35,713 bases of DNA from Acidobacteriota bacterium (GTDB taxonomy: Bacteria > Acidobacteriota > Thermoanaerobaculia > Multivoradales > JAHEKO01), in the NCBI GenBank assembly GCA_030597375.1, contig JAUVRX010000006.1, forward strand, positions 1 to 35,713. Direction: 5' to 3'. Below the pieces are notes generated by a model. The model searched no databases and was not told the origin of the DNA. It saw nothing but the letters and a program-made list of their open reading frames with translations. Both the position numbers and the translations under genes were made by a program. Below, one piece after another: positions 3,840 through 31,982 of this stretch (position 1 is its first letter; each line of letters opens with the position of its first letter).

Positions 3840-3950
3840 CCCCACTGAACCCGGTGGGCTTGGCCACGCCTGACTCGAGATCACCTTTCACTCTCCGAAC
3901 AGCCTGATTTTCCATCGTTTTTCGACCGTTGGATGGATGGATTTGGGTGG

Positions 3951-3975
3951 TGGAGAAAAATGGACAAAAGTGGAC
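3951..3975 (+). promoter_or_regulatory. Probable MraZ operator: three TGGAN repeats at 10-bp spacing
   Basis: TGGAG, TGGAC and TGGAC begin at 3951, 3961 and 3971, each followed by a 5-base A-rich spacer, so the units repeat at exactly one helical turn. MraZ proteins of other bacteria bind 5-base TGGGN direct repeats with 5-base spacers in front of their own operon. The geometry here is the same with A in place of the third G. The middle repeat contains the -35 box, so binding would block RNA polymerase. Binding itself is inferred. Confidence 0.75.
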
Positions 3976-3989
3976 TGCGGTGCTACACT
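3961..3989 (+). promoter_or_regulatory. Promoter of the dcw cluster (mraZ promoter)
   Basis: The -35 box TGGACA (3961-3966, 5 of 6 matches to TTGACA) and the -10 box TACACT (3984-3989, 4 of 6) are separated by 17 bp. Transcription should start near 3996, giving a leader of about 28 bases before mraZ. The promoter overlaps the TGGAN repeats. No other clear promoter is visible until ftsZ, so this one may drive the whole cluster. Confidence 0.7.
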
Positions 3990-4023
3990 GCGCAGCGATC
4001 TATTGCTTTAGGTGGACGGGTCA

Positions 4024-4464: not shown

Positions 4465-4513
4465 GTGTTCGGATTGTCTCATCGCTCGATGGCAGTTCAT
4501 TGAATCGGCGAAC

Positions 4514-5437: not shown

Positions 5438-5441
5438 CCCT

Positions 5442-5786
5442 TTGAGCAGCACCTACGTCGTCCGCCGACCGGTCCTCAATAGCTATCTGGTTCGCCAGCG
5501 GGACCGAAAACGTCGAAAAGAGCTTGGCCTCGTCCTGGTCGTCATTCTGCCCCTGGCGATCGGGCTTCTGGGATACGTGTGGCTGAATCTGGAGCTCATC
5601 GATAGCGGCTACGAGGTGCATGATCTCGAAAGGACCCTCAAGCAGGAAGGGCAACTCCAGCGCGAGTTGTCCGTGGAAGCGGCCTATCTGTCCAGCCCAG
5701 CACAGGTTCAGTCGCGAGCCTCGACGGAGTTGGGAATGGTCCCGACGACCCTCGACAGGCTCATCTTTCTCGAGGAGATCCCGTGA
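5442..5786 (+). CDS. ftsL: Cell division protein FtsL
   Basis: A small bitopic division protein of 114 residues. It has a basic cytoplasmic N-terminus (RQRDRKRRKE), one membrane segment at about residues 32-52 (LVLVVILPLAIGLLGYVW), and a short periplasmic coiled-coil-like segment ending in a motif like those in which FtsL meets FtsI (RASTELGMVP). Sequence conservation in FtsL is low, so the call rests on architecture and position between rsmH and ftsI. I chose TTG at 5442: AGGAGG at 5426-5431 lies 10 bases upstream, and the earlier in-frame start (5382) is inside rsmH. FtsL with FtsB and FtsQ activates septal peptidoglycan synthesis by FtsW-FtsI. The last bases overlap the GTG start of ftsI. 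Confidence 0.85.
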   Translation: MSSTYVVRRPVLNSYLVRQRDRKRRKELGLVLVVILPLAIGLLGYVWLNLELIDSGYEVHDLERTLKQEGQLQRELSVEAAYLSSPAQVQSRASTELGMVPTTLDRLIFLEEIP

Positions 5787-11691: not shown

Positions 11692-11693
11692 AG

Positions 11694-13049
11694 GTGAGCT
11701 TGGAAGCAGAAAAGTGGAATCGTGCCCTGGTCTATGGCCTCGGAATCTCCGGCAAGGCCGCGGCCCGCCTGCTACGGACCAGGGCAGTTGCGGTGGTCGG
11801 CGTGGATCGCAGGGCGGCCGAGGATCTGGATCTCGGCGACCTGGCAGATGACCCAGGGGTCGAGCTCCATCTGGGCCGAGAGCCGGACGTGCTTCCAGCT
11901 GGCATCGATGCAATTGTGATCAGCCCCGGTGTTCCACCTGGCCAGCCGTTGCTGCAGGCGGCGCGGCGAGCGCATCTTCCGGTGGTGGCCGAAGTGGAGT
12001 TGGCCTCCTGGTATCTCAATGGGCCTGTCGTCGGTATCACGGGCAGCAATGGGAAGAGCACCACGACGGCTCTGACCGGCGAGCTCCTTCGAGCCTCGGG
12101 GTTCGACGTCGAGGTGTGCGGCAATATCGGCGTCCCACTGAGTGCCTGTGTGGATGGAAAGGCAGGCCGGGTCTTTGTGACCGAGCTCTCCAGCTTCCAG
12201 TTGGAGGGCATCGACCAGTTGCGGCCGCGGGCCGCAGGTCTTTTGAACCTGGCTGCTGACCACCTCGACTGGCATGCTGGAAGAGAAGCGTATTTTGCCG
12301 CCAAGAAGGCACTTTTCCGGAATCAGACAGCGGACGATTCTGCAGTGCTCAATGCTGACGATCCCCGGGTAGCAGCGCTGACTGTCGAGGCGCATCGGCG
12401 GGTTTTCTCTCGTAAGGCCGCGGTCGAGGATGGTTGCTATGTGGAAGGAGATACCGTAGTCGAGGTGGCGCCGGATGAGGCTCCAAGAGCGCTCTTCAGT
12501 CGCGACGACCTGGCGCTCGAAGGCGAGCACAATCTGGAGAACGCCATGGCAGCTGCACTGCTATCCAGGGCCATGGGAGCCGACGGCTCGGCATTCCCAG
12601 CGGCACTGACCCGGTTCCGAGGCCTTCCACACCGGGTGGAGCAGGTGGGAGATCGACGGGGCGTGAAGTGGATCGACGATTCCAAGGCGACCAACTTCGC
12701 GGCGACGCTGCGGTCGTTGGAAGGTCTTCCCGATAACCGTGTGCATCTGATCCTCGGAGGCCGGAACAAGGGTGGTGACCCTGCCGCGCTGGCACAGGTC
12801 GCGGGTCGCAAGGTGAAACGGGTGTATCTGGTGGGCGAAGCCGCAGAGGGTTTCGGCCGAGTGCTGTCCGACATCGTGCCGTGTGAAAGGGCCGGGGGCC
12901 TGTCGCAAGCTGTGGATTCGGCGGGCCGAAGAGCCGTCGAGGGGGATGTGGTTCTGCTGTCGCCGGCATGCGCCAGCTTCGATCAGTACGGCAGCTTCAG
13001 CGAGCGTGGAGACCACTTCCAGCAACTGGTGGGGGCCCTGAATGGCTAA
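11694..13049 (+). CDS. murD: UDP-MurNAc-L-alanine:D-glutamate ligase MurD
   Basis: Cytoplasmic Mur ligase adding D-glutamate to UDP-MurNAc-L-Ala. It has 451 residues from GTG 11694, two bases after mraY. TTG at 11700, with GAGG five bases before it, is an equally reasonable start. The Rossmann-like N-terminus (ALVYGLGISGKAAA) binds UDP; the ATP loop is ITGSNGKSTTTAL near residue 115; LNLAADHLDWH and WIDDSKATNFAATL are characteristic of MurD. The reading frame stays open some 330 bases upstream inside mraY, but that part is a shadow. The end overlaps ftsW by 8 bases. Confidence 0.95.
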   Translation: MSLEAEKWNRALVYGLGISGKAAARLLRTRAVAVVGVDRRAAEDLDLGDLADDPGVELHLGREPDVLPAGIDAIVISPGVPPGQPLLQAARRAHLPVVAEVELASWYLNGPVVGITGSNGKSTTTALTGELLRASGFDVEVCGNIGVPLSACVDGKAGRVFVTELSSFQLEGIDQLRPRAAGLLNLAADHLDWHAGREAYFAAKKALFRNQTADDSAVLNADDPRVAALTVEAHRRVFSRKAAVEDGCYVEGDTVVEVAPDEAPRALFSRDDLALEGEHNLENAMAAALLSRAMGADGSAFPAALTRFRGLPHRVEQVGDRRGVKWIDDSKATNFAATLRSLEGLPDNRVHLILGGRNKGGDPAALAQVAGRKVKRVYLVGEAAEGFGRVLSDIVPCERAGGLSQAVDSAGRRAVEGDVVLLSPACASFDQYGSFSERGDHFQQLVGALNG

Positions 13050-14124
13050 GAAGCTCGCCTTCGACAAGGTGCTCTTCACCACGGTCATTCTGCTCGTGGG
13101 ACTGGGGTTGATCTCCGTCTTCTCGGCCAGTGCGGCTTTTGCCCGGGATCAGGATCGCGATCTGAATATGTTCCTTGCAAAGCAGAGCGTGGCCGCCGTG
13201 ATCGGCCTTGTCACCATGTGGATCCTGATGCACACCGACTATCGCCACTTCCGTCGGCCGAAGGTTCTGTACCCCATCATTGCCGGCGTGCTGCTGCTTC
13301 TCGTGGCTAGCCTTTTCGGCCCGGAGGTCAACAATACCCGTCGCTGGCTCTTTGTCGGGGGGCTCTCGATCCAACCCTCGGAGCTGGCCAAGCTGGCGAT
13401 CATCGCCTTCGTCGCCTTTCAGATCGAGCGCAATGAGGACCGCGAGAGCCGAGACCTGGTCCTGCCGGTATGCCTCCTGCTGGGTCTGATGGCCAGTCTG
13501 ATCCTGATGCAGCCCGATCTCGGGACGGCAGTTCTGCTGTGCGGAGCCACGGTCTTCATGTTGTTTCTGGCGGGAGTGCGCTGGAGCTACTTCCTCGGCG
13601 GGGCGCTGGCCCTGCTGCCGGCACTCTGGCTGGCGGTCTACTCGGTGCCGTATCGACGGCAGAGGTTCATGGCCTTCCTGAATCCCGACCTCGAGCCCCT
13701 GCGCTCCGGATATCAGGCGCGTCAATCTCTCATCGCCGTCGGTTCGGGAGGCCTGCTGGGGCGTGGTCTGGGCGAGAGTCTTCAGAAGCTCTACTTTCTG
13801 CCCTATCCGCATTCGGACTTCATCTACTCGATCATCTCCGAGGAGCTCGGGCTGGTGGGTGCGGTAGGCGTTCTGCTGTTGTTCGCCATCCTGTTCTGGA
13901 GAGGTGTTCGCGCCGGCGTCAAGGCGCCGGACACCTTCGGGCGCTATCTGGCCTGGGGAATTGCGGGCCTCATCACCCTGCAGGCGTTGATCCATATCAG
14001 CGTGGCACTGGCCCTGATGCCGACCAAGGGCATCCCGCTGCCGTTCATCTCCTATGGCGGCTCTTCCTTGGTGGTCTGTCTGGCCGGTTCTGGGGTGGTG
14101 CTGAATGTGTCGCAGCATGCGTGA
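13042..14124 (+). CDS. ftsW: Septal peptidoglycan glycosyltransferase FtsW (SEDS family)
   Basis: Polytopic membrane protein of 360 residues with about ten hydrophobic segments. SEDS proteins polymerise lipid II and work with a class B PBP, here FtsI. Diagnostic motifs are GLGLISVFSAS near residue 18, the RRWLFVGGLSIQPSELAKLA segment in loop 1 (within residues 110-130), YQARQSLIAVGSGGLLGRGLG near 225, PHSDFIYSIISEELGL near 255, and GIPLPFISYGGSS near 330. Placement between murD and murG favours FtsW over RodA. It starts inside the end of murD. Confidence 0.95.
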   Translation: MAKKLAFDKVLFTTVILLVGLGLISVFSASAAFARDQDRDLNMFLAKQSVAAVIGLVTMWILMHTDYRHFRRPKVLYPIIAGVLLLLVASLFGPEVNNTRRWLFVGGLSIQPSELAKLAIIAFVAFQIERNEDRESRDLVLPVCLLLGLMASLILMQPDLGTAVLLCGATVFMLFLAGVRWSYFLGGALALLPALWLAVYSVPYRRQRFMAFLNPDLEPLRSGYQARQSLIAVGSGGLLGRGLGESLQKLYFLPYPHSDFIYSIISEELGLVGAVGVLLLFAILFWRGVRAGVKAPDTFGRYLAWGIAGLITLQALIHISVALALMPTKGIPLPFISYGGSSLVVCLAGSGVVLNVSQHA

Positions 14125-14184
14125 TGAGCAAGGACCTGGGAGAGCTGTGAATGGTGATGCTGGTCAACGAAGGGCGCGGCAACG

Positions 14185-15270
14185 ATGGCGAGTGAGCATG
14201 CGCTCCTGGCTGGGGGCGGTAGTGGTGGGCATGTGTTCCCTGCCCTGGCGGTCGCCGATGAGCTGCGCCAGCGAGGCTGGCAGGTGAGCTGGATGGGTCG
14301 GATGTCGGGTATGGAAAGAGAGCTTGTAGAGGCCCGTGGACTGCCGTACCACGGCTTGCCGGCGAAAGCTGTCGTCGGCCGTGGACCCTTCCAGAAGGCC
14401 GCTGCACTCGGAACCCTGGGGGTCTCGTCCTGGCGTGCGAGGCAGATGATCCGCGATCTCGAAGCCAACGTGATCCTGGGAACCGGCGGATATGTCTCAG
14501 TGCCGGCGGTTCTCGGCGCCGCGCTGAACAAGCGCCCTGTCGTTCTTCTCGAGCCCAACGCTGAAGCCGGGTCGGCCAATCGATGGCTGTCCCGTTGGGC
14601 GTCGTCGGCAGCCGTCGCCTTCGCAGGGGTCGAGCGGCAGCGCAATGGTCCCGCTAGAGGGACTGGAGTGCCGGTTCGCCGGGAGTTTTTCGAGGCCCAC
14701 GACCGCAGGCCTGCGAACGGAGCCCTCCGCCTGCTGGTCCTTGGCGGAAGTCAGGGGGCCCGCCAGCTGAACCAACTGGTACCGGCTGCCCTGGGGCGGC
14801 TCGAGGGTAGGCTCTCGGGTCTTGAAGTCGTGCATCAGGTGGGTGAAGAGCTGTTCGAGGAGGCGGAGAGCACCTACCGGGAAAACGAACTGAGGGGTCT
14901 CAGAGTTCGGGTCGTTCCCTTCTTGCTCGATGTTGCCGGGGAAATGGCTGCGGCCGATCTGGTGATCTCGCGAGCCGGAGCCATCACCGTAGCGGAAATT
15001 TGCGCCGCGGGGCGAGCCGCTCTGCTCGTTCCACTGGCTCTGGCAGGTGGGCACCAACTGGCCAATGCCCATCGCCTGGAGTCCAGCGGTGGAGCGGTCG
15101 TCCTGACGCCAGAGATCGCCGATGCAGAGACTCTGGGGCGGTTGCTCGAGAAGTTGCTCGACGACCGCGAGCGATTGCAGACCATGGGCCAGACGCTCCG
15201 CGGCCTGGCCTGGCCGGGAGCTGCCGAAGCCGTCGCCGACCTCCTGTACGATGCAGTGGAGACAACTTGA
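14185..15270 (+). CDS. murG: UDP-GlcNAc:lipid I N-acetylglucosaminyltransferase MurG
   Basis: Peripheral membrane GT28 glycosyltransferase converting lipid I to lipid II. It has 361 residues, with the glycine-rich loop LLAGGGSGGHVFPAL at residues 7-21, GTGGYVSVPAVLGA near 100, the second loop LVLGGSQGARQLN near 185, and the donor-site segment ISRAGAITVAEICAAG near 258 followed by GGHQLANA. The ATG at 14185 is 60 bases after ftsW; the upstream Shine-Dalgarno sequence is weak. A 14-codon reading frame (14151-14195) overlaps the start, but I do not call it a gene. The stop shares one base with the murC start. Confidence 0.95.
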   Translation: MASEHALLAGGGSGGHVFPALAVADELRQRGWQVSWMGRMSGMERELVEARGLPYHGLPAKAVVGRGPFQKAAALGTLGVSSWRARQMIRDLEANVILGTGGYVSVPAVLGAALNKRPVVLLEPNAEAGSANRWLSRWASSAAVAFAGVERQRNGPARGTGVPVRREFFEAHDRRPANGALRLLVLGGSQGARQLNQLVPAALGRLEGRLSGLEVVHQVGEELFEEAESTYRENELRGLRVRVVPFLLDVAGEMAAADLVISRAGAITVAEICAAGRAALLVPLALAGGHQLANAHRLESSGGAVVLTPEIADAETLGRLLEKLLDDRERLQTMGQTLRGLAWPGAAEAVADLLYDAVETT

Positions 15271-16657
15271 TGTTCCGGCGTTTCACCAATCTGGCTGCAG
15301 TCCACTTCATCGGCATAGGTGGTGCCGGCATGAGTGGCATAGCCGAAGTGCTCCTGGATTACGACCTCGAGGTGAGCGGTTGTGATCAGGCCTCGAGCGA
15401 GACGACAGAGCGGCTGTCGAGGCTCGGAGCGAAGGTGTATCAGGGACATTCACCCGAACATCTCGACAAGGTCGATCTGGTCGTGATCTCTTCGGCGGTG
15501 TCGAGAGACCACCCGGAAGTGGTGGCTGCCAGGCAGAACAACATCACCGTGGTGCGGAGAGCCGAGATGCTGGGTGAGCTCATGCGGCTGAAATACGGCA
15601 TCGCGGTGGCGGGAACGCATGGCAAGACCACGACGACCTCGCTGATCGGGACCGTGTTGACGGAAGGCGGGCTGGATCCGACGGTCATTGTGGGCGGCCG
15701 CCTGAGGGTCTCCGGCACCGGCGCTCGACTGGGCAAGAGCGAGTACCTGGTCGCCGAGGCCGATGAGTACGACCGCAGCTTTCTCAGGTTGCAGCCCATC
15801 GTTGCGGTCGTCACGTCGGTCGATGAGGACCATTTGGACACCTATGCAGGCTTGGACGAGATCCGCAGCGCCTTCATGACCTTTGCCAGCAAGGTGCCAT
15901 TCTTCGGTCAGGCCATTCTTTGCCTGGATGACACCAACATCCAGGGGCTCTTGCCGCAGCTGAAGAAAGAGCACCGGGTCGTGACCTACGGTGTTTCGCC
16001 ACAGGCCGATCTGAGAGCGACGGAGTTCGAGAGCACGGCCTCCGGCTCCCGTTTCAAGGTCCTCGACTCGCGACAGGGCGAACTGGGCACGGTGGAGTTG
16101 CCGATGCCGGGTCTGCACAACGTACGCAACTCCCTGGCGGCGATAGCGGTGGGCCAGGCAATGGACATACCTTTCGCCAGTATCGCTCAGGCACTGGCGG
16201 GTTTCTCGGGTGTGCATCGACGGTTCGAGACCAGAGGTGTGTGGCGGGGGGCCAAGGTCATCGATGACTACGCCCATCACCCGACCGAGGTGTCGGCCAC
16301 GCTCGAGGCTGCTCGACAGGCCTTCCCGGGCGCCGTGATTCACGTCGTCTTCCAGCCGCATTTGTTCTCGCGGACTCGCCATCTGGCCCTCGAATTTGGC
16401 CGCTCCTGCTGGGAGCCGACACGGCCGTGGTGACCGATATCTACGCTTCGAGGGAGCAGCCGGAGCCGGGGGTGACCTCCGATCTCGTCGTCGAGGCCGC
16501 CAGAAGGAGCGGTCATCGCCACGTCCGTCTCTGCGCCGACTGGCGGCAGGTTCCAGAACTGCTGGCGGCCGAGGTCCAGGAGGGTGATGTGATCCTGACC
16601 CTCGGTGCGGGCGATATCTATCGCCTGGCAGAGCTGCTTGTCGAGGAGGCGGCATGA
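15270..16657 (+). CDS. murC: UDP-N-acetylmuramate:L-alanine ligase MurC, disrupted by a frameshift near 16400
   Basis: First ligase of the peptidoglycan stem-peptide pathway. From ATG 15270 the protein shows the UDP-binding loop FIGIGGAGMSGIAE near residue 11, ATP loop GTHGKTTTTS near 113, ADEYDRSFL near 167, and VIDDYAHHPTE near 331. After QPHLFSRTRHLALEFG (up to 16400) the frame runs into unrelated residues and stops at 16431-16433. The missing C-terminus is in the next frame from about 16403 (LLLGADTAVVTDIY, then REQPEPGV and TLGAGDIY) to 16657. One lost base in GGCCGCTCC restores a normal protein of about 462 residues. No slippery heptamer is visible, so an indel or assembly error is likelier than programmed shifting. 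The restored end overlaps ftsQ by 4 bases (ATGA), as expected for an originally intact gene. Confidence 0.9.
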
Positions 16658-17460
16658 AACCGCCGAAGATCCAGGTGAACAGCCCGAGCCCGTTCCGGCG
16701 TCGGCGGTTTGTCGCGCCGCACCGGCGCGGCAATCTGCTGCTGATGCTGGCGCGGCCGTTCCTCACGGCGCTGCTGCTCGTCGGCCTGCCGGTGGCTGCA
16801 GGAGTGTGGGTCGTCACATCGCCTCGATTCCTGCTCAGCAACGTCGTGGTCAGTGGAACGAGTCGGGTCCAGCCTGCCGAGGTCGTCGAGGCCCTGAGGC
16901 CGTTGCAGGGGAAACACCTTCTGTTGGTGTCACTGGCCGACGTCGAGAGTCGGCTTTCCGAGAACCGATGGATCGAGGGGGCCAACCTGCGCAAGAGGCT
17001 GCCCGACAGCCTCGTGGTGGAGGTCGAGGAGAGGCAACCCGTGGCGCTGTTGCGCAGAGACGAGGGACTCTTCTATGTCGACCGTAGCGGCACCGTGATC
17101 GATCTCTATGATCCAGTGCGAGAGGTCGATCTGCTGCTGCTGAGTGTGGCTCCGAGCGCCAGATTGGAAGTAGAGCCGGCCCTTGCCGTCGCTGCAGAGT
17201 TGGAACTGGTGGCCCCGGAGTGGGCGGTGGGGCTGTCGGAGGTGGAAGTTCTGGGAGGAAACGACTTTCGACTCTTCACGGCGGCCCTGCCATTCCCGGT
17301 TCTGGTGAGCCTCGGCGGAGTAGGAAGACAGGTCAGGAAGTTCAGGGATGTGATGCCCGAAATCATTAGGCGGTATGATCGAGTGTCGGCGGTCGACCTT
17401 CGATTCTCACGTCAGATCGTTGTTCAACCCGCGGTGGAACCGCGCAGCCAGGAGGGGTGA
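16654..17460 (+). CDS. ftsQ: Cell division protein FtsQ
   Basis: Bitopic inner-membrane protein of 268 residues that links FtsL and the septal synthase to the rest of the divisome. It has a basic cytoplasmic N-terminus (RRRRFVAPHRRG), one membrane segment at about residues 33-54, a POTRA domain from about residue 56 (FLLSNVVVSGTSRV to LPDSLVVEVEERQPVAL), and a beta-rich FtsQ-type domain. The ATG overlaps the murC stop by 4 bases. In many dcw clusters murB lies between murC and ftsQ; here the overlap leaves no room for it. The call rests on architecture, POTRA motif and position. Confidence 0.92.
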   Translation: MKPPKIQVNSPSPFRRRRFVAPHRRGNLLLMLARPFLTALLLVGLPVAAGVWVVTSPRFLLSNVVVSGTSRVQPAEVVEALRPLQGKHLLLVSLADVESRLSENRWIEGANLRKRLPDSLVVEVEERQPVALLRRDEGLFYVDRSGTVIDLYDPVREVDLLLLSVAPSARLEVEPALAVAAELELVAPEWAVGLSEVEVLGGNDFRLFTAALPFPVLVSLGGVGRQVRKFRDVMPEIIRRYDRVSAVDLRFSRQIVVQPAVEPRSQEG

Positions 17461-17465
17461 GGCTT

Positions 17466-18707
17466 ATGCCCAAGGCGGACTCATACATCGTTGCCATCGA
17501 CATCGGATCTTCCAAGGTCGGAGTATTGATCGGGCAACGTGACGATCGTGGAACTCTCGAAGTGGTGGGCAAAGGCATCGCCCCGAACCGAGGGACCCGA
17601 AGAGGGAACATCGTCAACGTCGAGGCGACGGTCGATGCGCTGAAGCAGGCCACCGAGGAGGCGGAGGTCATGGCCGGCATCGAAGTGTCGAGGGCCTATG
17701 TCGGCGTGGCTGGAACCGACATGCGGAGTATCAACTCCCGTGGCATGGTGACGGTGGCGAAGAAGGATCAAGACCGGGAGATTACCCGGCAGGATATCGG
17801 GCGGGTTCTCGAGGCGGCACAGTCGGCGGCCCTGCCCTCGGATCGCGAGATCCTCCACGCCATTCCTCAGGACTTCACCGTCGACGAGCAGAGCGGAATC
17901 TCGGAGCCCCTGGGGATGCTGGGTAGTCGTCTCGAGGTCGCGGTGCACCTTGTGACCGGCAATATCACGCGCCGCAAGACCCTTCTGACGTGTATCAATC
18001 GGGCTGGCATCGAGGTCATCGAGTTGGTCTTCGAACCCCTTGCCACCGCTGAAGCGGTTCTTACCCATGACGAGAGAGAGCTTGGAGCCCTGGTTCTGGA
18101 TATCGGTTGCGGTACCACGGAATACGCGGTCTTCGTCGATGGTGAAGTGCAGTACAGCGCGGTCCTACCGGTGGGTGCGGGGCATTTCACCAATGACCTC
18201 GCCATGGTCCTGCGCACCCCCTTCGCCGAAGCCGAGAAGCTCAAGATCAAGCACGGCTGTTGCCTCGGCGGCATGGTCGGCGAGGAAGAAGGGATCTCGG
18301 TGCCGACGGTGGCAGGCGGTCCGCCCAGGGTCGTGCCCAAGCGGGAGCTGTGCAGCATCCTGCAGCCGCGGGCCGAAGAGATGCTGACCCTGGTGCGGGA
18401 CGATCTTGCCAAATACGGGTTCGACGAAGCCCTGCGAGGCGGGCTCGTGCTGACCGGTGGCGGGGCGCAACTCGACGGCTACCTGGAGCTGGCGGAGCAG
18501 GTCTTCAATTGCACGGTCCGCTACGGTCTGCCTCAGGGGCTCGGAGGCCTGGTAGACGTGATCAGCTCGCCGACCTGGACGGCTGCCTCCGGCCTCCTGC
18601 TCTACGGTCGGAGCTCGGAAGACAGACAGCGCAGGACAGTTCACACAGGTTTCAGCGTGCGTGCAGTGATGACCAGTCTCCGCGGCATGTTTTCGGATTT
18701 GCTGTAG
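17466..18707 (+). CDS. ftsA: Cell division protein FtsA
   Basis: Actin-like ATPase of 413 residues that tethers FtsZ to the membrane. The nucleotide-binding motifs are present: phosphate 1 AIDIGSSKVGVLIG near residue 11, phosphate 2 LVLDIGCGTTEYAVF near 210, and adenosine motif LVLTGGGAQLDGYLE near 328. The 1C region between them carries VAGTDMRSINSRGMV. The last ~17 residues (from VRAVMTSLRGMF) form an amphipathic helix typical of the membrane-targeting sequence. ATG 17466 is preferred over GTG 17457 because AGGAGG (17450-17455) lies 10 bases upstream of it. It ends in TAG. Confidence 0.96.
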   Translation: MPKADSYIVAIDIGSSKVGVLIGQRDDRGTLEVVGKGIAPNRGTRRGNIVNVEATVDALKQATEEAEVMAGIEVSRAYVGVAGTDMRSINSRGMVTVAKKDQDREITRQDIGRVLEAAQSAALPSDREILHAIPQDFTVDEQSGISEPLGMLGSRLEVAVHLVTGNITRRKTLLTCINRAGIEVIELVFEPLATAEAVLTHDERELGALVLDIGCGTTEYAVFVDGEVQYSAVLPVGAGHFTNDLAMVLRTPFAEAEKLKIKHGCCLGGMVGEEEGISVPTVAGGPPRVVPKRELCSILQPRAEEMLTLVRDDLAKYGFDEALRGGLVLTGGGAQLDGYLELAEQVFNCTVRYGLPQGLGGLVDVISSPTWTAASGLLLYGRSSEDRQRRTVHTGFSVRAVMTSLRGMFSDLL

Positions 18708-18739
18708 AAAGTAGGACCACCCGGAAGGAGAGTTGAAAA

Positions 18740-19987
18740 ATGATTCTATTTGACGATCAAGGAATGGAAGGCAGTCTTTCCATTACCCTGGATGAGGCAG
18801 AGGGCGCGACGGCCAAGATCACGGTTGTCGGCGTCGGTGGTGGTGGGGGAAACGCCGTCAATCGGATGATCGACTGTCAGATGCGAGGCATCGAGTTCAT
18901 CGCCGGCAACACCGACATGCAGGCCCTGCGGAAATGCAGTGCGCCGGTGAAGCTCCAACTGGGTCCGACCCTGACCAGGGGCCTGGGCGCTGGAGGCGAC
19001 CCCGAGGTGGGCCGCAAGGCGGCCCTCGAGGACACCGAGCGGATCCTGGAGCTGTTGGACGATTCCGACATGGTGTTTCTCACTGCCGGGATGGGTGGGG
19101 GGACTGGCACCGGCGCCATCCCGATCTTCGCTTCGCTGGCCTCTGAGCTGGGGGCTCTGACGGTTGCCGTGGTAACCAAGCCCTTCACCTTCGAAGGTCG
19201 CCGAAGGATGGAGCTGGCGGAGCGGGGCATCGACGAGCTACGGGGTGCGGTCGACACCCTGATCACGATCCCCAATGAGAGACTGCTCAATTTCGTCGAG
19301 CGCGGAACTCCCCTCAACGAGGCCTTTCGCATTGCCGACGATGTCCTCCGCCAAGCGGTGCAAGGCATCTCCGACCTCATCACCGTGCCTGGCGAAGTCA
19401 ATGTGGATTTCGCCGACGTCAAGACCATCATGACCGGTATGGGCATGGCCCTGATGGGCACGGGAGTGGCCAAGGGCGAAAGCCGGGCCATCGAGGCAGC
19501 GCAGCGCGCCATCTCCTCGCCCCTGCTGGAGGAGACCTCGGTCGAGGGTGCCAAGGGAGTGCTCATCAACATCTCTGGCGGTCCCGATCTGACTCTTCAC
19601 GAGGTGGACGAGGCGGCCAAGGTCATCGCAGAAGCCGTGGATTCGGCGGCCAACATCATCTCGGGTCTCGTCATCGATGAGTCGATGGAGGAGGAGATGA
19701 AGGTCACCGTGATCGCCACGGGCTTCCAGGGCACCCACGCGCCTGCCTACAGCCAGCCGTCCCTGCCCTCCGCCGAGCAACGCGAGGAGCCGGCCCAAGC
19801 AGCGGAGCCGGCAGTGTCCGAGGTCTCAGATCCGGCCGCGGTTGCCGAGGAGAAGCAGGAGGATATTCCGTTCTACCGCAAGGTCATCGCGCAGACCCAA
19901 CCGGATGACCCCAATGGGTACGGGCCGAACTGGTCCAACGTCGACGACTTCGACATTCCAACGGTGCTGCGAAAGCAGATGGACTAG
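18740..19987 (+). CDS. ftsZ: Cell division GTPase FtsZ
   Basis: Tubulin-like GTPase of 415 residues forming the Z ring. It has [14 protein letters not shown] near residue 33, the tubulin signature [12 protein letters not shown] near 118, the T7 synergy loop [11 protein letters not shown] near 220, a variable Glu/Pro/Ala-rich linker (about 335-395), and the C-terminal peptide DIPTVLRKQ that binds FtsA. The N-terminal extension of ~25 residues before the core is normal. A strong Shine-Dalgarno sequence (AAGGAG) lies before ATG 18740, 32 bases after ftsA. It ends in TAG. It closes the dcw cluster. Confidence 0.98.
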
Positions 19988-20828: not shown

Positions 20829-21359
20829 ATGGAACGAGGATTCGAGGAGGGGAAAGCCCAACGCAATTGGCTGGAGAGCCTGGGTGAGAAGATTCCCGGT
20901 TTTCGGGGCTTCCAGGACCGAGAGCTTCGCCGAGAGGTCGACAAGCTGCAGCGAGAGTATCTCGCCAGTGAGGTGACGCGACTCAAATCCACCCTTCGCG
21001 CCCGTGCCGAGCGCTACACCGACGCAGGCAGGATTGGAGTCCTGCACCTGTTCGACCGGCTCGACCGACGAATGGATGGCGTCGCCAGGGCAGTCCGCTT
21101 CAGCGACTATGGTGCCACGGGCTTTTTCGATGTGGTCAAAGTCGATGAGGCGGCTCTCGAAGAGCTCTATCGATACGATCTGACTCTGTTAGAGGATCTC
21201 TCGGGGCTGGCAGACGATCTGGCAGCCATCCCCCTGCCTGACGACGGCGATCCAGAGGAAGCTCTGGAGGCGGCTCTGGAGCGTCTCCAGCGACTGGAGG
21301 CCAAGTGGGCCGCTCGCGAAGGAGCCGTCAACAAAGTGGTGCAGACCGCCGGTGGATAG
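20829..21359 (+). CDS. Uncharacterised helical protein, first gene of the SPFH/zinc-ribbon cluster
   Basis: A 176-residue, highly charged, soluble protein that I do not recognise. It has no signal peptide or membrane segment. Its sequence looks almost wholly helical: residues ~10-75 are rich in Arg/Glu heptads (DRELRREVDKLQREYL), a central glycine-containing segment (RFSDYGATGFFDVVKVDE) is followed by two more helices, and the last 40 residues (EEALEAALERLQRLEAKW) look like a coiled coil. GGAGGG at 20817-20822 is 6 bases before ATG. The gene precedes the SPFH gene by 27 bases and is probably in the same transcript. By position it could play the helical, membrane-scaffold role that PspA plays near YdjI in Bacillus, but I see no PspA signature. 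It ends in TAG. Confidence 0.8.
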   Translation: MERGFEEGKAQRNWLESLGEKIPGFRGFQDRELRREVDKLQREYLASEVTRLKSTLRARAERYTDAGRIGVLHLFDRLDRRMDGVARAVRFSDYGATGFFDVVKVDEAALEELYRYDLTLLEDLSGLADDLAAIPLPDDGDPEEALEAALERLQRLEAKWAAREGAVNKVVQTAGG

Positions 21360-21386
21360 GACCCAGCGTTGCCAGGAGGACTGTCG

Positions 21387-22430
21387 ATGAAGGTCATTCA
21401 ATATGTAGATGCCACAGGTCAGACGATGGTGGCCAGGGTCCCCCGGCAGGGTACCGAGGCCATCAAGCTGGGCAGCCAATTGATCGTCGAAGAGAGCCAG
21501 GAGGTGGTCTTCTTCCGTGACGGTAAGGCTCTCGACACCTTCGGTCCGGGGCGCCACACGCTGGCCACACAGAACCTGCCCTTGCTGACCACGATGCTGG
21601 GGCTGCCCTTTGAGGGTAAATCTCCATTCCAGGCGGCGGCCGTCTTCGTCTCGACCAAGACTTTCCTGGATCTCAAGTGGGGCACGAAAGAGGCGGTCGT
21701 CTATCGCGATAGCGAGTTGGCGATGGTACGGCTGCGGGCGTTCGGCAAGTTCGCCGTCCGCATCACCAACTCCCAGGTCTTCGTCAATGGGGTCGTTGGG
21801 ACGATGGGGGTCTACACGACCGATGGTGTGGAGTCCTACTTCAAAGATGTCATTGTCGCCCGCCTGACCGATGTGCTGGGCGAGAACCTGCAGTCGATTT
21901 TCGATCTGCCGAAGGTTTACGACGAGCTCTCGATGGCGCTCAAGTCCCGTGTCGCAGACGACTTCTCGAAGTACGGCATCGAACTGGTGGACCTCTACCT
22001 CGGTGCGATCACTCCGCCGCCCGACGTCCAGAAGCTCATCGACGACCGTGCTGGCATGGCCGCTGTGGGCGACATGAATGCCTATCTGAAGTTCAAGGCC
22101 CCCCAGGCCATGGGAGACGCGGCCCGACAGTCTGGGGGTGAGACGAGCAGCGGTGTCGGGGCCGGTCTCGGAGTCGGCATGGGAGCTGGAATGGGGATGA
22201 TGTTGCCTCAGATGATGAAGGAGGCCATGACCGATTCCGCAGCCGGAGGAGGCAAGGGTGCCCCCAGCGAGGCAGCGACCGAGAGCAAGCCGGAGGCCAC
22301 CGGCAACGCCGCAGCTCCGGCAGCGGCTGGGACGGCTCCCGCGGCTGGTGCTTTCTGTCACTCCTGCGGCGCCAAGCTTCCAGAGGGCGCCCGATTCTGT
22401 CCCGGCTGTGGTACCAAGGTCGCCGAGTGA
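21387..22430 (+). CDS. SPFH-domain protein with C-terminal zinc ribbon (YdjI-like)
   Basis: A 347-residue protein. Residues ~1-230 are the SPFH (band 7) fold of the YdjI/'virion core protein' type: VIVEESQEVVFFRDGK-like start, GPGRHTLATQNLP near residue 53, VVYRDSELAMVRLRAFGKFAVRI near 105-127, and FSKYGIELVDLYLGAITPP near 190. A low-complexity Gly/Met stretch (about 250-275) and an Ala/Pro linker follow, then a zinc ribbon CxxC-x10-CxxC (Cys324, 327, 338, 341). There is no clear membrane helix. YdjI in Bacillus subtilis acts with YdjG and YdjH to place PspA at the membrane. AGGAGG (21374-21379) is 7 bases before ATG 21387. The stop overlaps the next gene's GTG start. Domain call secure; function inferred. 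Confidence 0.9.
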   Translation: MKVIQYVDATGQTMVARVPRQGTEAIKLGSQLIVEESQEVVFFRDGKALDTFGPGRHTLATQNLPLLTTMLGLPFEGKSPFQAAAVFVSTKTFLDLKWGTKEAVVYRDSELAMVRLRAFGKFAVRITNSQVFVNGVVGTMGVYTTDGVESYFKDVIVARLTDVLGENLQSIFDLPKVYDELSMALKSRVADDFSKYGIELVDLYLGAITPPPDVQKLIDDRAGMAAVGDMNAYLKFKAPQAMGDAARQSGGETSSGVGAGLGVGMGAGMGMMLPQMMKEAMTDSAAGGGKGAPSEAATESKPEATGNAAAPAAAGTAPAAGAFCHSCGAKLPEGARFCPGCGTKVAE

Positions 22431-23203
22431 CAGGCAGATTGCCGCCGGAAGTGAAGGACGCTCGTTTCGTCTGCTCACAGTGCGGTGGCGAAGGCGCCCT
22501 GGAGTCCGGCCAGCGCTTCCTGACATGCCGTTTCTGCAACACCACCCTGTTTGTCGATCGGTCGGGCGTTGTGGGCCACTACCGTCTGCCCCGTCTGTTG
22601 GTGGCCGATGAAGCCACAGCGGCGGTTCGGCGGTGGATGGCTGGCAACGATACGGTCAAGGATCTCGACAGCAGAAGCGCCAACGAAGCCATGGAGGCGG
22701 TGTCGTTTCCGGTATGGCTCTTTCGGGTGCAGTTGGGGGGTGGAGAAGAGGTGTACATCGAGCCTGCTGCGGCCACGATGGTCCCTCAGTTGGCCGACCT
22801 CAAGCTACCGGCTGGCCGGCTCGAACCCTACACGGCTGAAGAGGAAGGGGTCGAAGCGATTCCAGAGACGATTCCTCTGGAGACGGCGCGTAGTTGGCTG
22901 GAGCAGCGTGGCCATGGCCGACCGACCGAGACGGCGCTGGTGCAATTGCCACTCTGGAGATGTCGATACAGCTACGAGGGCCAGACCTACCAGGCCCTGG
23001 TGGATGCCTCTACCGGGGCGGTCATGGCGGCCGTGTTCCCGGAGAAGGCGGAGAGTCCCTATTTCCTGGTCGCCGGTCTTGGGATCCTTCTATTCACGAT
23101 CGAGGGGTTGGCGATCACTCATCCGGCCATCAAATTCTTGGCCTATCTGATCACTGCAATACCCCTGCTGTTGTTGGCCTACTGGGTGGCCCGCAGGATA
23201 TGA
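22427..23203 (+). CDS. Zinc-ribbon membrane protein 1 (TFIIB-type ribbon, two C-terminal membrane segments)
   Basis: A 258-residue protein with an N-terminal zinc ribbon CxxC-x14-CxxC (Cys16, 19, 34, 37), a soluble middle region of about 170 residues, and a C-terminal membrane hairpin (about residues 210-226 and 236-253) ending in WVARRI. The ribbon would face the cytoplasm. The middle contains an LW-x-x-RY-x(6)-YQ-x-L-x-DA pattern that recurs in the next gene, so the two are paralogues. This layout resembles YdjG of the Bacillus ydjGHI group. It starts with GTG overlapping the SPFH stop by 4 bases, so the two proteins are probably made in proportion and may form one complex. Confidence 0.85.
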   Translation: MTGRLPPEVKDARFVCSQCGGEGALESGQRFLTCRFCNTTLFVDRSGVVGHYRLPRLLVADEATAAVRRWMAGNDTVKDLDSRSANEAMEAVSFPVWLFRVQLGGGEEVYIEPAAATMVPQLADLKLPAGRLEPYTAEEEGVEAIPETIPLETARSWLEQRGHGRPTETALVQLPLWRCRYSYEGQTYQALVDASTGAVMAAVFPEKAESPYFLVAGLGILLFTIEGLAITHPAIKFLAYLITAIPLLLLAYWVARRI

Positions 23204-24324
23204 GCGAGCCTGTCGATTCTTCGGGCATGACACGGGCATCCGAGAAGGAGGTCGAGGTCAGCCTCTCGGGCCGGGTCGAGGGCCTGAGCTGCCCGAGTTG
23301 TGGTGGTGCCCTCGACGTCGTGACAGGCCTGCGGGTAGTCACCTGTCCGTACTGTGATAAATCGCTTCTCGCCATCCCCGAAGTGGGCGTGCGGCGCTGG
23401 GTCGTCAAACCCACCGTCGATGTCGAAAGGGCTCGCGAGCTCGGAAGACAGTGGCTATCGAGGGGATGGAACAAGGACTCGCGACTGCGGCGTGAGGCCG
23501 AGATGGGTGAAGCCATTCTCTGCTTCTTACCGTTCTATCGAGTGGAGGCCGACTGCATCGGCTTCGCACTCGGCACGGAGGAGCGCCGACGAACGCGGGG
23601 CTCGGGAAGCCATCGACGGGTCGTGGTCGAGGAGGTCGACGTGGAACGGTCGGTGGCGAAGAGCTTCGATCGCACATTTCCGGCCCTCAACGTCGCCGAG
23701 TGGGGGATCCAGCAGGTCAATCTGCAGGGAGACCGAGTCGTACCCTACGATCAAGTGGCCCTCGAGCGACACGGGATGGTCTTCCCAGCGACGGGTTCGG
23801 AGGTGGTCGTCAAGAAGGCAGCAATCGAGCAATTCAAGCTGCAGTCGGATCCGGCGAGCGGCCTCAAGAGGATTCGTTTCCGCTACTTCGAGACCCTCCG
23901 GGAGCGCCTCAGTATCATTTACTACCCGCTCTGGGTCGTGCGGTATCGCTTCAGGAATCGCTCCTATCAGCTCCTCATGGACGCCGAGGACGGCACGCTG
24001 GCCTACGGCAAATCACCCGGCAACGACCTGTTCCGGGCCATGATGCTGGTTGGGTCTCAGGCCCTGGCGCTCTTCATCGGGACAACGGCTCTGCAGTTTA
24101 CCGGCGGCAGCCCGGCAGCGCTCCTCATCATCGGTACCGCCATGATCCTGGCCCTGGCCTGGGGCTGGCGGCGCTTCCGCCACGGCGGGGTCGTGATCGA
24201 GGGCACGGGAGTCGACCCGGAGTTGGATCTGGGCGAGGCCTGGAGCAGCTTGGCGGATCCAGACGCCCAGGAGAGGATTCTGCGCGACCTCTTGCAGGGG
24301 CGCATACCGGAGATCGGCAGATGA
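23200..24324 (+). CDS. Zinc-ribbon membrane protein 2
   Basis: A 374-residue protein of the same plan as its upstream neighbour: ribbon CxxC-x14-CxxC (Cys31, 34, 49, 52), a long soluble region, and a two-helix membrane segment at about residues 283-327 (LVGSQALALFIGTTALQF, then LLIIGTAMILALAWGW). It continues with a ~48-residue cytoplasmic tail. It shares the LW-V-V-RY-RF...YQLLMDAEDG pattern with protein 1. The soluble part holds a basic, Gly/Ser-rich loop (TEERRRTRGSGSHRR) near residue 125. ATG 23200 overlaps the previous stop (ATGA). The frame is open upstream of this ATG, but that region codes for the neighbour in another frame. Confidence 0.85.
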   Translation: MSEPVDSSGMTRASEKEVEVSLSGRVEGLSCPSCGGALDVVTGLRVVTCPYCDKSLLAIPEVGVRRWVVKPTVDVERARELGRQWLSRGWNKDSRLRREAEMGEAILCFLPFYRVEADCIGFALGTEERRRTRGSGSHRRVVVEEVDVERSVAKSFDRTFPALNVAEWGIQQVNLQGDRVVPYDQVALERHGMVFPATGSEVVVKKAAIEQFKLQSDPASGLKRIRFRYFETLRERLSIIYYPLWVVRYRFRNRSYQLLMDAEDGTLAYGKSPGNDLFRAMMLVGSQALALFIGTTALQFTGGSPAALLIIGTAMILALAWGWRRFRHGGVVIEGTGVDPELDLGEAWSSLADPDAQERILRDLLQGRIPEIGR

Positions 24325-24947
24325 GCGATGGTTTCGAGTTCAGGCTGGTGCCGCTGGACTGCCCGACCTGTGGAGCGGGGATTCAGGCTCTGGGCGAGGA
24401 CGTCGTCTACTACTGTACAGCCTGCCGCAACGGCTATCTCCTGGATCAGTCCGACTGGAGTCTTCGACGCATCGAGACGGCGTTTGTGGCGACGGCCCAC
24501 ATCCAGGTGCAGGAATACAGACCATTCTGGCTCCTTCCGGCGAAGGTCGACATCCATCAGCACCAGGCTGGCAACGGTGGGTTTACCGGCATTCTCAGCG
24601 CCTTCTTCGGAGAGGAGGGGGCCTTCTACGACGGTGGTCAGGGGATCTTTGCGGTGCCGGCATTCCAGACATCACTCGAATCGGTGACCCGCCTCGTGCG
24701 CAGCTACACTGAAGCGCTTCCGGAGTTGAAGGAGAAGCTGGGAGAGCGTCTCCTTGGAGGATGCTACGGTAGGCAAGACGCGGAGAAGCTGGCTCACTAT
24801 GCCCTGATCGCCACCGAGGTCGATAAGCCCAAGGTCCTATTGGATCTGAAGTATGAGATCGAGTTCGGTGAGCCGCGCCTGCTTGGAGTGCCGTTCACCA
24901 AGAAGGCCGACGCCACCATGGACGCAGTGTTCGGTATCGAGGTCTGA
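24321..24947 (+). CDS. Zinc-ribbon protein 3 (soluble)
   Basis: A 208-residue protein with the same ribbon spacing as the two before it, CxxC-x14-CxxC (Cys14, 17, 32, 35), but no membrane segment. After the ribbon it has EYRPFWLLPAKVDIHQHQ, which resembles the FLPFYRVEAD segment of protein 2 at the equivalent distance, then a glycine-rich loop (FFGEEGAFYDGGQG) and a mixed alpha/beta remainder. It appears to be a diverged paralogue that lost its membrane hairpin. ATG 24321 overlaps the previous stop (ATGA). Function unknown; by context it is a partner of the SPFH protein. Confidence 0.82.
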   Translation: MSDGFEFRLVPLDCPTCGAGIQALGEDVVYYCTACRNGYLLDQSDWSLRRIETAFVATAHIQVQEYRPFWLLPAKVDIHQHQAGNGGFTGILSAFFGEEGAFYDGGQGIFAVPAFQTSLESVTRLVRSYTEALPELKEKLGERLLGGCYGRQDAEKLAHYALIATEVDKPKVLLDLKYEIEFGEPRLLGVPFTKKADATMDAVFGIEV

Positions 24948-25032
24948 TCTCCGAGCTCCTGGCGACTTGAAATCGGCTTCGATTGAGAGTGACGATCGAG
25001 AAAACGGTATTCTCTGAAAGGTGGCTCGAGCA

Positions 25033-25869
25033 GTGAGTGAATCCAAAAGCACCACCATCCACGGCGTCGAGCTCTTCTTGGGCTCTCCGGTGGAGCAGGT
25101 GCCGCCCTGGATCGGACAGCGCGAGGTCCTGATGCAGTTGCTCGCAGCCTGGTCCCGGGTCGAGGCTGCGGACCTGCCCCTGAACCCACGCCTTCTGGGT
25201 AAGCCCGGAGTCGGGAAGACCACTCTTGCATGCGCTGCGGCTCGAGAGCTGGGCCTCGATATCTACATCGCCCAGGCCACCATGGACACCCGACCCGAGG
25301 ACCTCATCGTCTCCCCGGTCCTGGCGTCCGGAGGCGGAGTGCGATACATGGCGTCGCCGTTGGTCAGTGCCATGGTTCGTGGCGGAGCTTTGATCCTCGA
25401 TGAGGGAAACCGCATGAGCGAAAAGTCATGGGCGTCTCTGGCCCCGCTTCTCGACCATCGCCGTTATGTGGAGAGTCTGGTGGCCGGAATCCGGATTCCC
25501 GCGCATGACGACTTCCGCTTCGTGACCACCATGAACGACGATGCCTCGACCTACGAGCTGCCCGAGTACATCCACTCCCGGCTGATGCCGCAGATCTACG
25601 TGGACTTTCCCGAGGAGGACGAAGAACGGGAGATTCTGCGGGCCCAGGTGCCATTCGCTGACGAGGAGGTCGTGGAGTACGTCCTGTCGTTCCTTCGAGC
25701 CGCACACGATCGCGACCTCCGCTACACGGTTCGCGATGGTATCAACCTGGTGCGCTACGCCATGAAGGTCCTCAAGCGAGGCGAGGTCGATAGTCCTCCT
25801 GAAGCTGTCGATGCGGCCATGCGGCTCTCCCTGGCCGGCGACGAACTGGAGGAGTTCGAGATCTCGTGA
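25033..25869 (+). CDS. MoxR-family AAA+ ATPase
   Basis: A 278-residue single AAA+ module of the MoxR/CobS type. Walker A is GKPGVGKTT (residues 56-64), Walker B LILDEGN with Asp123-Glu124, sensor 1 TTMNDD with Asn168, and an arginine-bearing segment EYIHSRLMPQIYVDFP follows. MoxR ATPases are chaperone-like remodellers that usually act with a von Willebrand factor A protein; no such gene is nearby. I chose GTG 25033 because AAGGTGG lies 8 bases upstream; GTG 25021 would overlap that site. The 85-base gap before it holds a weak promoter candidate (TTGAGA 24983, TATTCT 25008, 19-bp spacer). The end overlaps the next gene by 4 bases (GTGA), so its true partner is probably that protein. Confidence 0.88.
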   Translation: MSESKSTTIHGVELFLGSPVEQVPPWIGQREVLMQLLAAWSRVEAADLPLNPRLLGKPGVGKTTLACAAARELGLDIYIAQATMDTRPEDLIVSPVLASGGGVRYMASPLVSAMVRGGALILDEGNRMSEKSWASLAPLLDHRRYVESLVAGIRIPAHDDFRFVTTMNDDASTYELPEYIHSRLMPQIYVDFPEEDEEREILRAQVPFADEEVVEYVLSFLRAAHDRDLRYTVRDGINLVRYAMKVLKRGEVDSPPEAVDAAMRLSLAGDELEEFEIS

Positions 25870-27872
25870 GCCAGCCGAGCGCTGCCAGCTTCGAAGTCGA
25901 CAGGCTGGCCCCCGAAGTTGACGACGGCATTCACCTTCTGCCGGTGGTTCACGAGCGCGTCGAGCTGGCCAGCGTCGCCCGAGCGGTGCTCGATGCCTTG
26001 GATCCGGTAGCGGTGGCAGTCGAGCTACCGACGACAGTCCGGGCTGCGGCAGCCCTGGCTGTCGGACGCTTGCCGCGGGTCTCGTTGGTGATCTCCGAAG
26101 AGCCAGGGGAAGACGCCCTCGTGTGGGTCGTGGCACCAGGAGACCCTCTGGTCGAAGCCATCCGCTGGGCGGAGGAACGGCACAAGCCCTTCTTCTGCAT
26201 CGACCCCGACCTGCCCTATGAGGAGCGCCACTCCGACCACGTTCCCGATCCCTACGCCCTCTGGCAGATGGGCGCGGATGCTTATCTCGAGAGCCTACAA
26301 CGCGGCCTGGAGGAGGGGCCAGTGTCCGAAGTCGATGAGCGTCGAGAGGCCGGGATGGCGTTCCATCTCCGGCAAGCGCGAAGTGAGATCTCCGGACCGA
26401 TTGTGGCTGTCGTCGGAGCAGCGCACGTCAGGGGTGTGAGCTCTCGGCTGAAGGGTCCGCTGGCGCATCCATTCGCCCGGATGCGCCGCAGTCGAGTCGT
26501 GGTGCGACATCTGGCTCCCAGAAGTCTCACGGCGCTGTTGCCTGACGCGCCGCTGGCACATTCCGTCTGGGAGCGAGTGCGGACCGGGGAGGCACCGGTG
26601 GACACGAATCTGGATTCGACGTTCTCATGTCGCGTCTCCGTAATCCGCTTCGGCCTCAGGGTGATCCAAGGGGAGCAGGGGGACAACGAGACCGAACGCA
26701 GGCAGAGGCTGGTGGATTATGCCAGCCTCGAGGGAACCCGAAAGGCCCTCGGTGGCTGGCTGGCGCCCGACCGGGCGCGCCTCGGTGGCGTCGTCTGGCG
26801 GGTCGCAGCAGGCTCCTACAGCGTTCAGACTGGCGAGACGGTGGCCGGCTGGCAGCGCAGGATGTTCTTCGATTTCGCGCGGCGATGCGCCAGGGTGCAG
26901 GGCAACTTGATACCGGGTCTGTATGAATGGGTGGTCGCCGCTCGCGGTGTCGGTGACGACAACTTGGCCTGGGAGGTCTTCGAGGCATCTCGGACCTACC
27001 CCTGGCAGGAGGACCACGCAGAGATCGAAACCGCTTCGATCGACGGCGACGAGCTCGACCTGGGGACCCGGAAGATTCGCTTTCGCCGCCGCTTCTTCAG
27101 GGTCAAGCAGCGGCCGATCGCCATCCCGGTGCGGCAGCACCCCCATCCCGAAAGTCCGGAAGATTGGCTTCGGGCGTTCGATGCGTCAGGCATTTGCTCC
27201 TTCCCTCCGGAAGACCTGGTGGTCGAGGATTACGGGCGATTCCTGCAGAGGAAGGCCCTCTCGGTGTTGTCGGCTGAGCGGCAGAGGACGGAGCCGTTCA
27301 CGTGCAGCTTGCTCGATGGCATCGACATTCGGGAGACGCTCCGCAACGTCCACGAAGACCGGGTCTATGTTCAAGAGAAAGGGAAAGTGCCGGGAGATGC
27401 AGGCTCGGTGGTCGTCGTTTTTGATCGCGACCAGGAGGACGAGCGATTTCCCTTCGCCATGACGTGGTTGGGCGAGCACGATCAGGAGTCGGATATGGCG
27501 TTCTATTCCACCAATCCGGCGGACCAGGTTGTCGGCCCCGGAGTCATGCGGGCCACCTACGGTGGATTCGTCTTGACCCAGCCGCGGGGTAGGCTATCGG
27601 ATGTCTGGTCGGATCCCGACTATCGATGGGCCCGCGGCAAGGCGGAGGTCCTGTTGATGGCCGCCATCGCCTCCAGCCTCGAGAAGATCGTTGTGCATCT
27701 GGCCCCCGCGCCGCCTGCCGAGCCCATGCACCGCTACGCCACTTCTCAGGGCAAGCAGATCCTCCACCTCCCTCTCTCCTCGCTCTCTCCCGTGACGCTG
27801 AAGAAGATCCGGGTCATGCACATCCTGGCCGGCCACGACAAGCTCGAAATCGCCAAAGACTACATATGGTGA
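25866..27872 (+). CDS. Large protein with TraB/PrgY-like N-terminal domain; C-terminal two thirds unknown
   Basis: A 668-residue protein, no signal peptide, no clear membrane segment. The N-terminal ~210 residues show the TraB/PrgY family pattern: HLLPVVHERVEL near 23, DPVAVAVELP near 45, an E-R-x-E-x-G-M-A motif near 157, and VAVVGAAHVRGV near 181. TraB-like proteins are suspected membrane-linked peptidases or pheromone-binding factors; the conserved His and Glu are retained. Residues ~230-668 match nothing I recognise: a basic mixed region followed by a beta-rich segment with VVVVFDRDQED near 515 and LSPVTLKKIRVMHILAG near the end. GTG 25866 overlaps the MoxR stop, so the two are translated together and this is probably the ATPase's client or adaptor. 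N-terminal family call moderate. Confidence 0.75.
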   Translation: MSQPSAASFEVDRLAPEVDDGIHLLPVVHERVELASVARAVLDALDPVAVAVELPTTVRAAAALAVGRLPRVSLVISEEPGEDALVWVVAPGDPLVEAIRWAEERHKPFFCIDPDLPYEERHSDHVPDPYALWQMGADAYLESLQRGLEEGPVSEVDERREAGMAFHLRQARSEISGPIVAVVGAAHVRGVSSRLKGPLAHPFARMRRSRVVVRHLAPRSLTALLPDAPLAHSVWERVRTGEAPVDTNLDSTFSCRVSVIRFGLRVIQGEQGDNETERRQRLVDYASLEGTRKALGGWLAPDRARLGGVVWRVAAGSYSVQTGETVAGWQRRMFFDFARRCARVQGNLIPGLYEWVVAARGVGDDNLAWEVFEASRTYPWQEDHAEIETASIDGDELDLGTRKIRFRRRFFRVKQRPIAIPVRQHPHPESPEDWLRAFDASGICSFPPEDLVVEDYGRFLQRKALSVLSAERQRTEPFTCSLLDGIDIRETLRNVHEDRVYVQEKGKVPGDAGSVVVVFDRDQEDERFPFAMTWLGEHDQESDMAFYSTNPADQVVGPGVMRATYGGFVLTQPRGRLSDVWSDPDYRWARGKAEVLLMAAIASSLEKIVVHLAPAPPAEPMHRYATSQGKQILHLPLSSLSPVTLKKIRVMHILAGHDKLEIAKDYIW

Positions 27873-31427: not shown

Positions 31428-31982
31428 ATGGCCAAGGAGACCAAGAAGAATCTCGTGACTATCAGACTGAACGGGACTCGTCTCGAGCTGACGGAAGGAG
31501 ATATCACCGAGTTCGTCGTCGACGCGATCGTCAATCCGGCCAACGAGAAGCTCGAACTAGGGACCGGAGTTGCCGGAGCGATTCGAGAAAAGGGCGGCCC
31601 TTCGATCCAGAAGGAGTGCGATCGCATAGGTGGAACAGCGGTGGGTACCGCCGTCATCACGGGTGCCGGAGACTTGCAGATCAAGCACGTCATCCATGCC
31701 GTCGGTCCCCGCCTGGGTGAGGGAGACGAGGATCGCAAGCTCGCCTCCGCGGTACGCGCTTCGCTGGCGCTGGCGGATCGGCATGGGCTCAAGTCGATAG
31801 CGATCCCCGCCATCTCGACGGGGAACTTCGGATTCCCGGTGAACCGCTGCGCGCGGGTCACCCTGACTGAGATCCATCGATATCTTCAGGGGGGTACGAA
31901 GCTCGAGAGGGTCGTGGTCTGCGTCTTCGACAAGGAGGCCTTCAGTACATTTCGGAACGAGCTCCGTAGAGGCTTCCGCTAG
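31428..31982 (+). CDS. Macro-domain protein (ADP-ribose / O-acetyl-ADP-ribose binding)
   Basis: A 184-residue single macro domain. Such proteins bind ADP-ribose derivatives and often remove them from proteins, nucleic acids or O-acetyl-ADP-ribose. Diagnostic motifs are EGDITEFVVDAIVNPAN near residue 23, the glycine loop ELGTGVAGAIREKGG near 45, HVIHAVGP near 90, and the second phosphate-binding loop IPAISTGNFGFP near 128. The first ~12 residues are basic (KETKKN). ATG 31428 is supported by GGGGAG with 7 bases of spacing; an upstream GTG at 31410 would cover that site. It is divergent from argS and convergent with apgM. It ends in TAG. Confidence 0.92.
   Translation: MAKETKKNLVTIRLNGTRLELTEGDITEFVVDAIVNPANEKLELGTGVAGAIREKGGPSIQKECDRIGGTAVGTAVITGAGDLQIKHVIHAVGPRLGEGDEDRKLASAVRASLALADRHGLKSIAIPAISTGNFGFPVNRCARVTLTEIHRYLQGGTKLERVVVCVFDKEAFSTFRNELRRGFR

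Follow-up and report, generated by a model that had tools for sequence, protein, structure and literature searches.

The block of genes at 20829-27872 of the window (the whole stretch of 35,713 nucleotides of Acidobacteriota DNA that was analyzed) raises the question of whether its products form one membrane-surveillance machine or whether two systems lie side by side. A sequence-only reading had joined all of the genes into a single combined machine. Following comparison with related genomes, it appears probable that the window carries two separately inherited modules, A (g1-SPFH-ZR1-ZR2-ZR3) and B (MoxR-TraB-like), which are neighbors only within one Thermoanaerobaculia family, with module A being a PspA-independent YdjG/YdjI-type SPFH platform and module B a NorQ/CbbQ-type MoxR pair.

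Gene Organization of the Block

Checking of open reading frames and start sites identified seven genes at 20829-27872, all on the + strand, as first read. Module A begins with g1 (20829-21359), encoding a helical protein of 176 aa, followed by the SPFH gene (starting at 21384 or 21387 and ending at 22430), which encodes a Band_7_1 domain with a C-terminal zinc ribbon. Three zinc-ribbon genes follow, each encoding an N-terminal ribbon. ZR1 (22427-23203) has two C-terminal hydrophobic helices and resembles ZR2 (23200-24324), which has a beta-rich middle domain ahead of its own two C-terminal hydrophobic helices, while ZR3 (24321-24947) has no predicted transmembrane helix. Module B consists of a gene for a MoxR-type AAA+ ATPase (starting at 25021 or 25033 and ending at 25869) and the TraB-like gene (25866-27872), encoding 668 aa with a TraB/ChaN-like N-terminal domain and a conserved C-terminal domain. 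The four-base overlaps reported earlier are present, reading GTGA at SPFH/ZR1 and MoxR/TraB-like and ATGA at ZR1/ZR2 and ZR2/ZR3. The modules are separated by 73 bp (24948-25020, not assigned to a strand) that are conserved only in parts within the window's genus, and a search of this ZR3-MoxR gap found no terminator-like site on the + strand. All seven genes have conserved homologues and so none is a chance ORF, the nearest named relatives being from Acidobacteriota, mostly Thermoanaerobaculia MAGs.

Upstream of g1 lies an apparent dcw cluster whose last genes are ftsA and ftsZ, followed by a VanZ-like gene. This dcw-like cell-wall and division cluster falls within 141-19987, with a Mfd/TRCF-type helicase and two PPIC/SurA-type foldases before it, and module A stands directly behind ftsZ in the window and in several family members. 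Downstream, a Macro-domain protein (Pfam Macro 3e-37) is encoded on the opposite strand at 31428-31982, adjoining an argS-like gene. An anti-phage role for the block was considered and set aside, only a generic AAA having matched in PADLOC.

Distribution and Separability of the Two Modules

Two 149-genome searches were performed, one of a phylum sample and one class-wide across the Thermoanaerobaculia with neighborhood annotation. The TraB-like protein was present in 8 genomes of the phylum sample and, in the loci fetched, MoxR usually came directly before the TraB-like gene with SPFH/ribbon genes never near, the window excepted. The class-wide search found A and B directly adjacent only in the window's genome (G000) and two congeners (G194 and G195). 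In three further genomes of the window's family (G191, G193, and G189) the modules are 3-5 kb apart with an E1-dehydrogenase-like gene in the interval (its identity checked with Pfam in G191 and G193), and in G191 and G193 opposite-strand genes also separate A from B. Both modules are present and unlinked in G203, G204, G240, G241, G245, and G278, lying on different large contigs in G203 and G204, and many genomes of the class carry one module alone. The recurrence and the separability of the modules are directly observed. The MAG assemblies are fragmented, absence calls are bounded by genome completeness, and contig ends bar any decision on linkage in G185, G190, and G196.

B was detected in 9 of the 18 genomes of the window's family and in every judgeable case (six genomes) lies no more than 5 kb from A, such that some selection for proximity is possible. 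The simplest history would be that B arrived once near A in the window's family, with the intervening genes then lost in the window's genus.

These data bear on the proposal that the seven genes together encode a single machine for membrane surveillance, with MoxR and the TraB-like protein working on a platform of SPFH and ribbon proteins. The shared strand, the 73-bp gap in which no terminator was found and the family-wide linkage within 5 kb are in keeping with such a machine; against it, A without B and B without A occur in many genomes, the modules are unlinked in the six genomes listed above, opposite-strand genes intervene in G191 and G193, and neither g1 nor SPFH lies near any of 41 other B loci (see below). 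As such the proposal is very unlikely to be correct. The terminator check proposed with the sequence-only reading found no such site on the + strand; the accompanying neighborhood check went against the single machine, since outside the family MoxR/TraB-like and SPFH/ribbon genes were not found together and direct adjacency was confined to one genus. The two-module reading is followed below, each module being taken in turn.

The SPFH and Zinc-Ribbon Proteins of Module A

The SPFH protein matches Pfam Band_7_1 (4e-56) and carries a C-terminal zinc ribbon at residues 324-346 (1e-8), with no transmembrane helix predicted, an architecture like that of YdjI. ZR1, ZR2, and ZR3 each contain CxxC pairs. 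The middle domain of ZR2 contains a YpeB/PepSY-like motif, the PepSY match being weak and detected in 3 of 17 ZR2 proteins. In the ZR2 model (pLDDT 79.3), the ribbon is joined by long beta strands and by a pair of helices at the C terminus; the model had no match in the PDB.

The order g1-SPFH-ZR1-ZR2-ZR3 recurs across the Thermoanaerobaculia, mostly without MoxR/TraB-like genes nearby, bearing out the earlier likening of a conserved SPFH/ribbon block to Bacillus YdjG/YdjI. The ribbon trio follows g1-SPFH in Thermoanaerobaculia-type loci and at two loci from other phyla (L271 and L300). A ZR1-ZR2-ZR3-like trio was also seen without g1 or SPFH (L127:7755-10220, genome G010).

The g1-SPFH Pair

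A profile scan for g1 using one genome per species identified 80 loci, assigned by their record titles to Acidobacteriota, Planctomycetota, Armatimonadota, WOR-3, and Bacillota, with one archaeal MAG in addition. SPFH was the next same-strand gene after g1 in 76 of these (76 of 78 once loci cut by a contig end are set aside), two of the four g1 loci lacking an adjacent SPFH gene ending at a contig edge soon after g1, and the median g1-SPFH gap across the scan was 28.5 bp. No other gene accompanies SPFH as faithfully as g1 does, a point missing from the sequence-only reading. Only one of the 80 loci (L227, on the contig of G194) has MoxR-TraB-like beside module A. In an SPFH tree, all but two of the members that accompany g1 cluster together, the node support being 0. 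An apparent g1-SPFH fusion in L239 was distrusted given a run of Ns nearby in the locus, and plasmid searches for g1 and for ZR2 returned no matches.

All 78 g1 proteins match NCBIfam NF047596 (LIMLP_15305, Leptospira), with the window's g1 scoring 34.4 bits against a curated cut-off of 210, making it a distant relative of that family rather than an equivalog. The g1 model (pLDDT 82.7) is a helical bundle with long helices, for which Foldseek found no PDB match at E<=0.001. A BAR-like assignment was rejected, with the Pfam Snx8 BAR hit (E 0.05) and the Foldseek BAR hits (E 0.1-1) being typical coiled-helix noise.

The neighbors of module A also prompt the suggestion that it has a link with cell division or protein export, given ftsZ ahead of it in the family and secA or guaB beside it elsewhere. 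An ftsZ-like ORF lies upstream of module A in the window, G194, G196, G183, and G184, and SecA-sized, SecA-like ORFs, judged by eye, adjoin g1-SPFH in several phylum loci; the neighbor differs between lineages, however, with only g1-SPFH constant, and this reading is very unlikely. Among loci from other Acidobacteriota families, L115, L121, L125, and L134 have g1-SPFH beside such SecA-sized, SecA-like ORFs, with guaB-like ORFs in several, again by eye.

Module A and PspA

Bacillus YdjI has so far been read mainly as a recruiter of PspA. A search with Pfam PF04012 found no PspA in the window's genome (92% complete) or in the two congeners, G194 and G195, and the match of the block proteins to Pfam revealed no PspA encoded with the SPFH gene, in agreement with the first impression that no PspA is visible here. 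The failure to find PspA in these three genomes indicates that module A does not depend on it. The same Pfam family was found in 22 of 40 relatives, and in 19 of 40 g1-bearing genomes it scored over the cut-off, which rules out mutual exclusion between PspA and g1.

The coexistence of both proteins in those 19 genomes likewise speaks against module A being a Psp system still, in which the SPFH protein would recruit g1 as a polymer of the PspA/ESCRT-III kind that has diverged strongly. The position of g1 adjoining the SPFH gene, the long-helix fold of its model and the failure to find PspA in the window's genus would suit such a polymer, while no Pfam PspA match was obtained for the window's g1 or among the 25 families listed for 78 members, and no ESCRT-III fold appeared among the 50 PDB matches listed. 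On balance we regard a diverged PspA as unlikely.

In the PspA-independent reading of module A, the topology, physical contacts and functions are given here as we infer them. ZR1 and ZR2, with two hydrophobic helices each, would anchor the platform in the membrane, with the soluble SPFH protein assembling on them through zinc-ribbon contacts and ZR3 possibly serving as a soluble adaptor. The helical bundle of g1 may be the dedicated partner of the SPFH assembly, proposed as such as it is encoded beside the SPFH gene in the way that PspA shares an operon in Bacillus; this role is a guess, since neither the g1 nor the ZR2 model has a significant match in the PDB. The likely task of module A would be to maintain or monitor the cytoplasmic membrane.

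More broadly, we tentatively suggest, at somewhat less than even confidence, that one YdjI-like SPFH clade, present in several phyla, has g1 as its defining partner and that g1-SPFH constitutes a second, PspA-independent SPFH membrane scaffold, in which g1 takes the place that PspA has in Bacillus. If true, a widespread unit of SPFH and a helical protein, occurring whether or not PspA is encoded in the genome, would provide this SPFH clade with its own function and a testable partner. The terms tried in the open-access literature retrieved no account of the g1-SPFH pair, the ZR1-ZR2-ZR3 set or the MoxR-TraB-like pair.

The MoxR-TraB-Like Pair of Module B

The MoxR protein matches Pfam AAA_5 (5.4e-16) and AAA_3 (3e-7) with a Walker A motif of GKPGVGKTT, and the solved structures nearest to it in sequence are those of midasin, NorQ, and CbbQ. 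No vWA match was found among the block proteins scanned.

The TraB label for the 668-aa protein is weakly supported, the match to TraB_PrgY_gumN having E 0.11 and 12.8 bits (gathering 26.8). The match to Pfam DUF5682 scores 24.1 bits (cut-off 26), with its best stretch spanning about 47 of 727 positions, and with the window protein below both cut-offs it was filed under neither DUF5682 nor TraB. The N-terminal part has invariant H29, E53, R160, and H187, the last within a GAAH motif, and these conserved positions would fit a TraB fold. The C-terminal domain (about 440-668) is highly conserved with an ESDMAFY motif and had no match in Pfam.

Module B recurs without g1 or SPFH in Acidobacteriota (the phylum-sample loci examined and, within the class, L183, L190, and L198 among others), at 20 Planctomycetota loci, on a Neochlamydia plasmid, and on a contig from a viral collection. 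Among 41 TraB-like neighborhoods outside the family, MoxR was adjacent in 24 by script count; beyond the ORF-gap limits of the script, it lies just upstream in L017, L209, and L210 and somewhat further upstream in L183 and L354, with several Planctomycetota loci having no MoxR beside the TraB-like gene. None of the 41 has g1 or SPFH nearby, although in two an ORF weakly resembling ZR1 lies at the distant edge of the neighborhood. In L200:6632-9442 (G173, same order), MoxR and the TraB-like protein are fused in frame as a protein of 936 aa. The partnership of MoxR with the TraB-like protein that had been proposed for the window is therefore upheld by a conserved pair and one natural fusion. On the IMG/VR contig (L306:368-4583), the pair was seen beside an integrase-like ORF, possibly in the host flank of a prophage.

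Comparison With Known Systems

In Bacillus subtilis, the membrane proteins encoded with pspA and ydjI in pspA-ydjGHI have been proposed as the SPFH anchor (PMC8581546, PMC9239133, PMC11237479). YdjI reaches the membrane only with the membrane proteins YdjG and YdjH, and PspA foci require YdjI (PMC8581546). YdjG is described as having zinc ribbons together with a TM segment and a domain related to YpeB (PMC11237479). Module A resembles this system in that its SPFH protein lacks a TM helix and carries a zinc ribbon at the C terminus, and in that genes for ribbon proteins with C-terminal TM helices adjoin the SPFH gene. Compared with the description of YdjG only, ZR1 and ZR2 have a similar architecture of a ribbon and two hydrophobic helices, ZR2 adding the weak PepSY/YpeB hint. 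In contrast to pspA-ydjGHI, module A lacks PspA and a YdjH/TPM gene (no TPM match in the block). It has g1 as a conserved helical partner instead, and of its three ribbon proteins two are YdjG-like and similar to each other, the remaining one being soluble.

By analogy with E. coli YehL-YehM, the MoxR ATPase of module B may remodel or activate the TraB-like protein encoded by the overlapping gene. In both cases the MoxR gene is followed at once by the gene for a large protein, and the window's TraB-like protein shares with YehM, which scores 330.8 bits against DUF5682, a short stretch of DUF5682 that runs up to the conserved histidine of G-x-x-H. BLASTP of the window's MoxR against YehL and of the TraB-like protein against YehM gave no significant match. 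The block differs in having no YehP/YehQ (vWA, SWIM) genes, and the C-terminal domain of its TraB-like protein is unrelated in sequence to YehM. Likewise, the window's MoxR, being nearest to midasin, NorQ, and CbbQ, recalls the NorQ/NorD and CbbQ/CbbO MoxR-vWA pairs, whereas its partner is the TraB-like protein and not a vWA protein. As such MoxR-TraB-like would offer a clean ATPase-client pair, natural fusion included, in which to study MoxR without a vWA protein.
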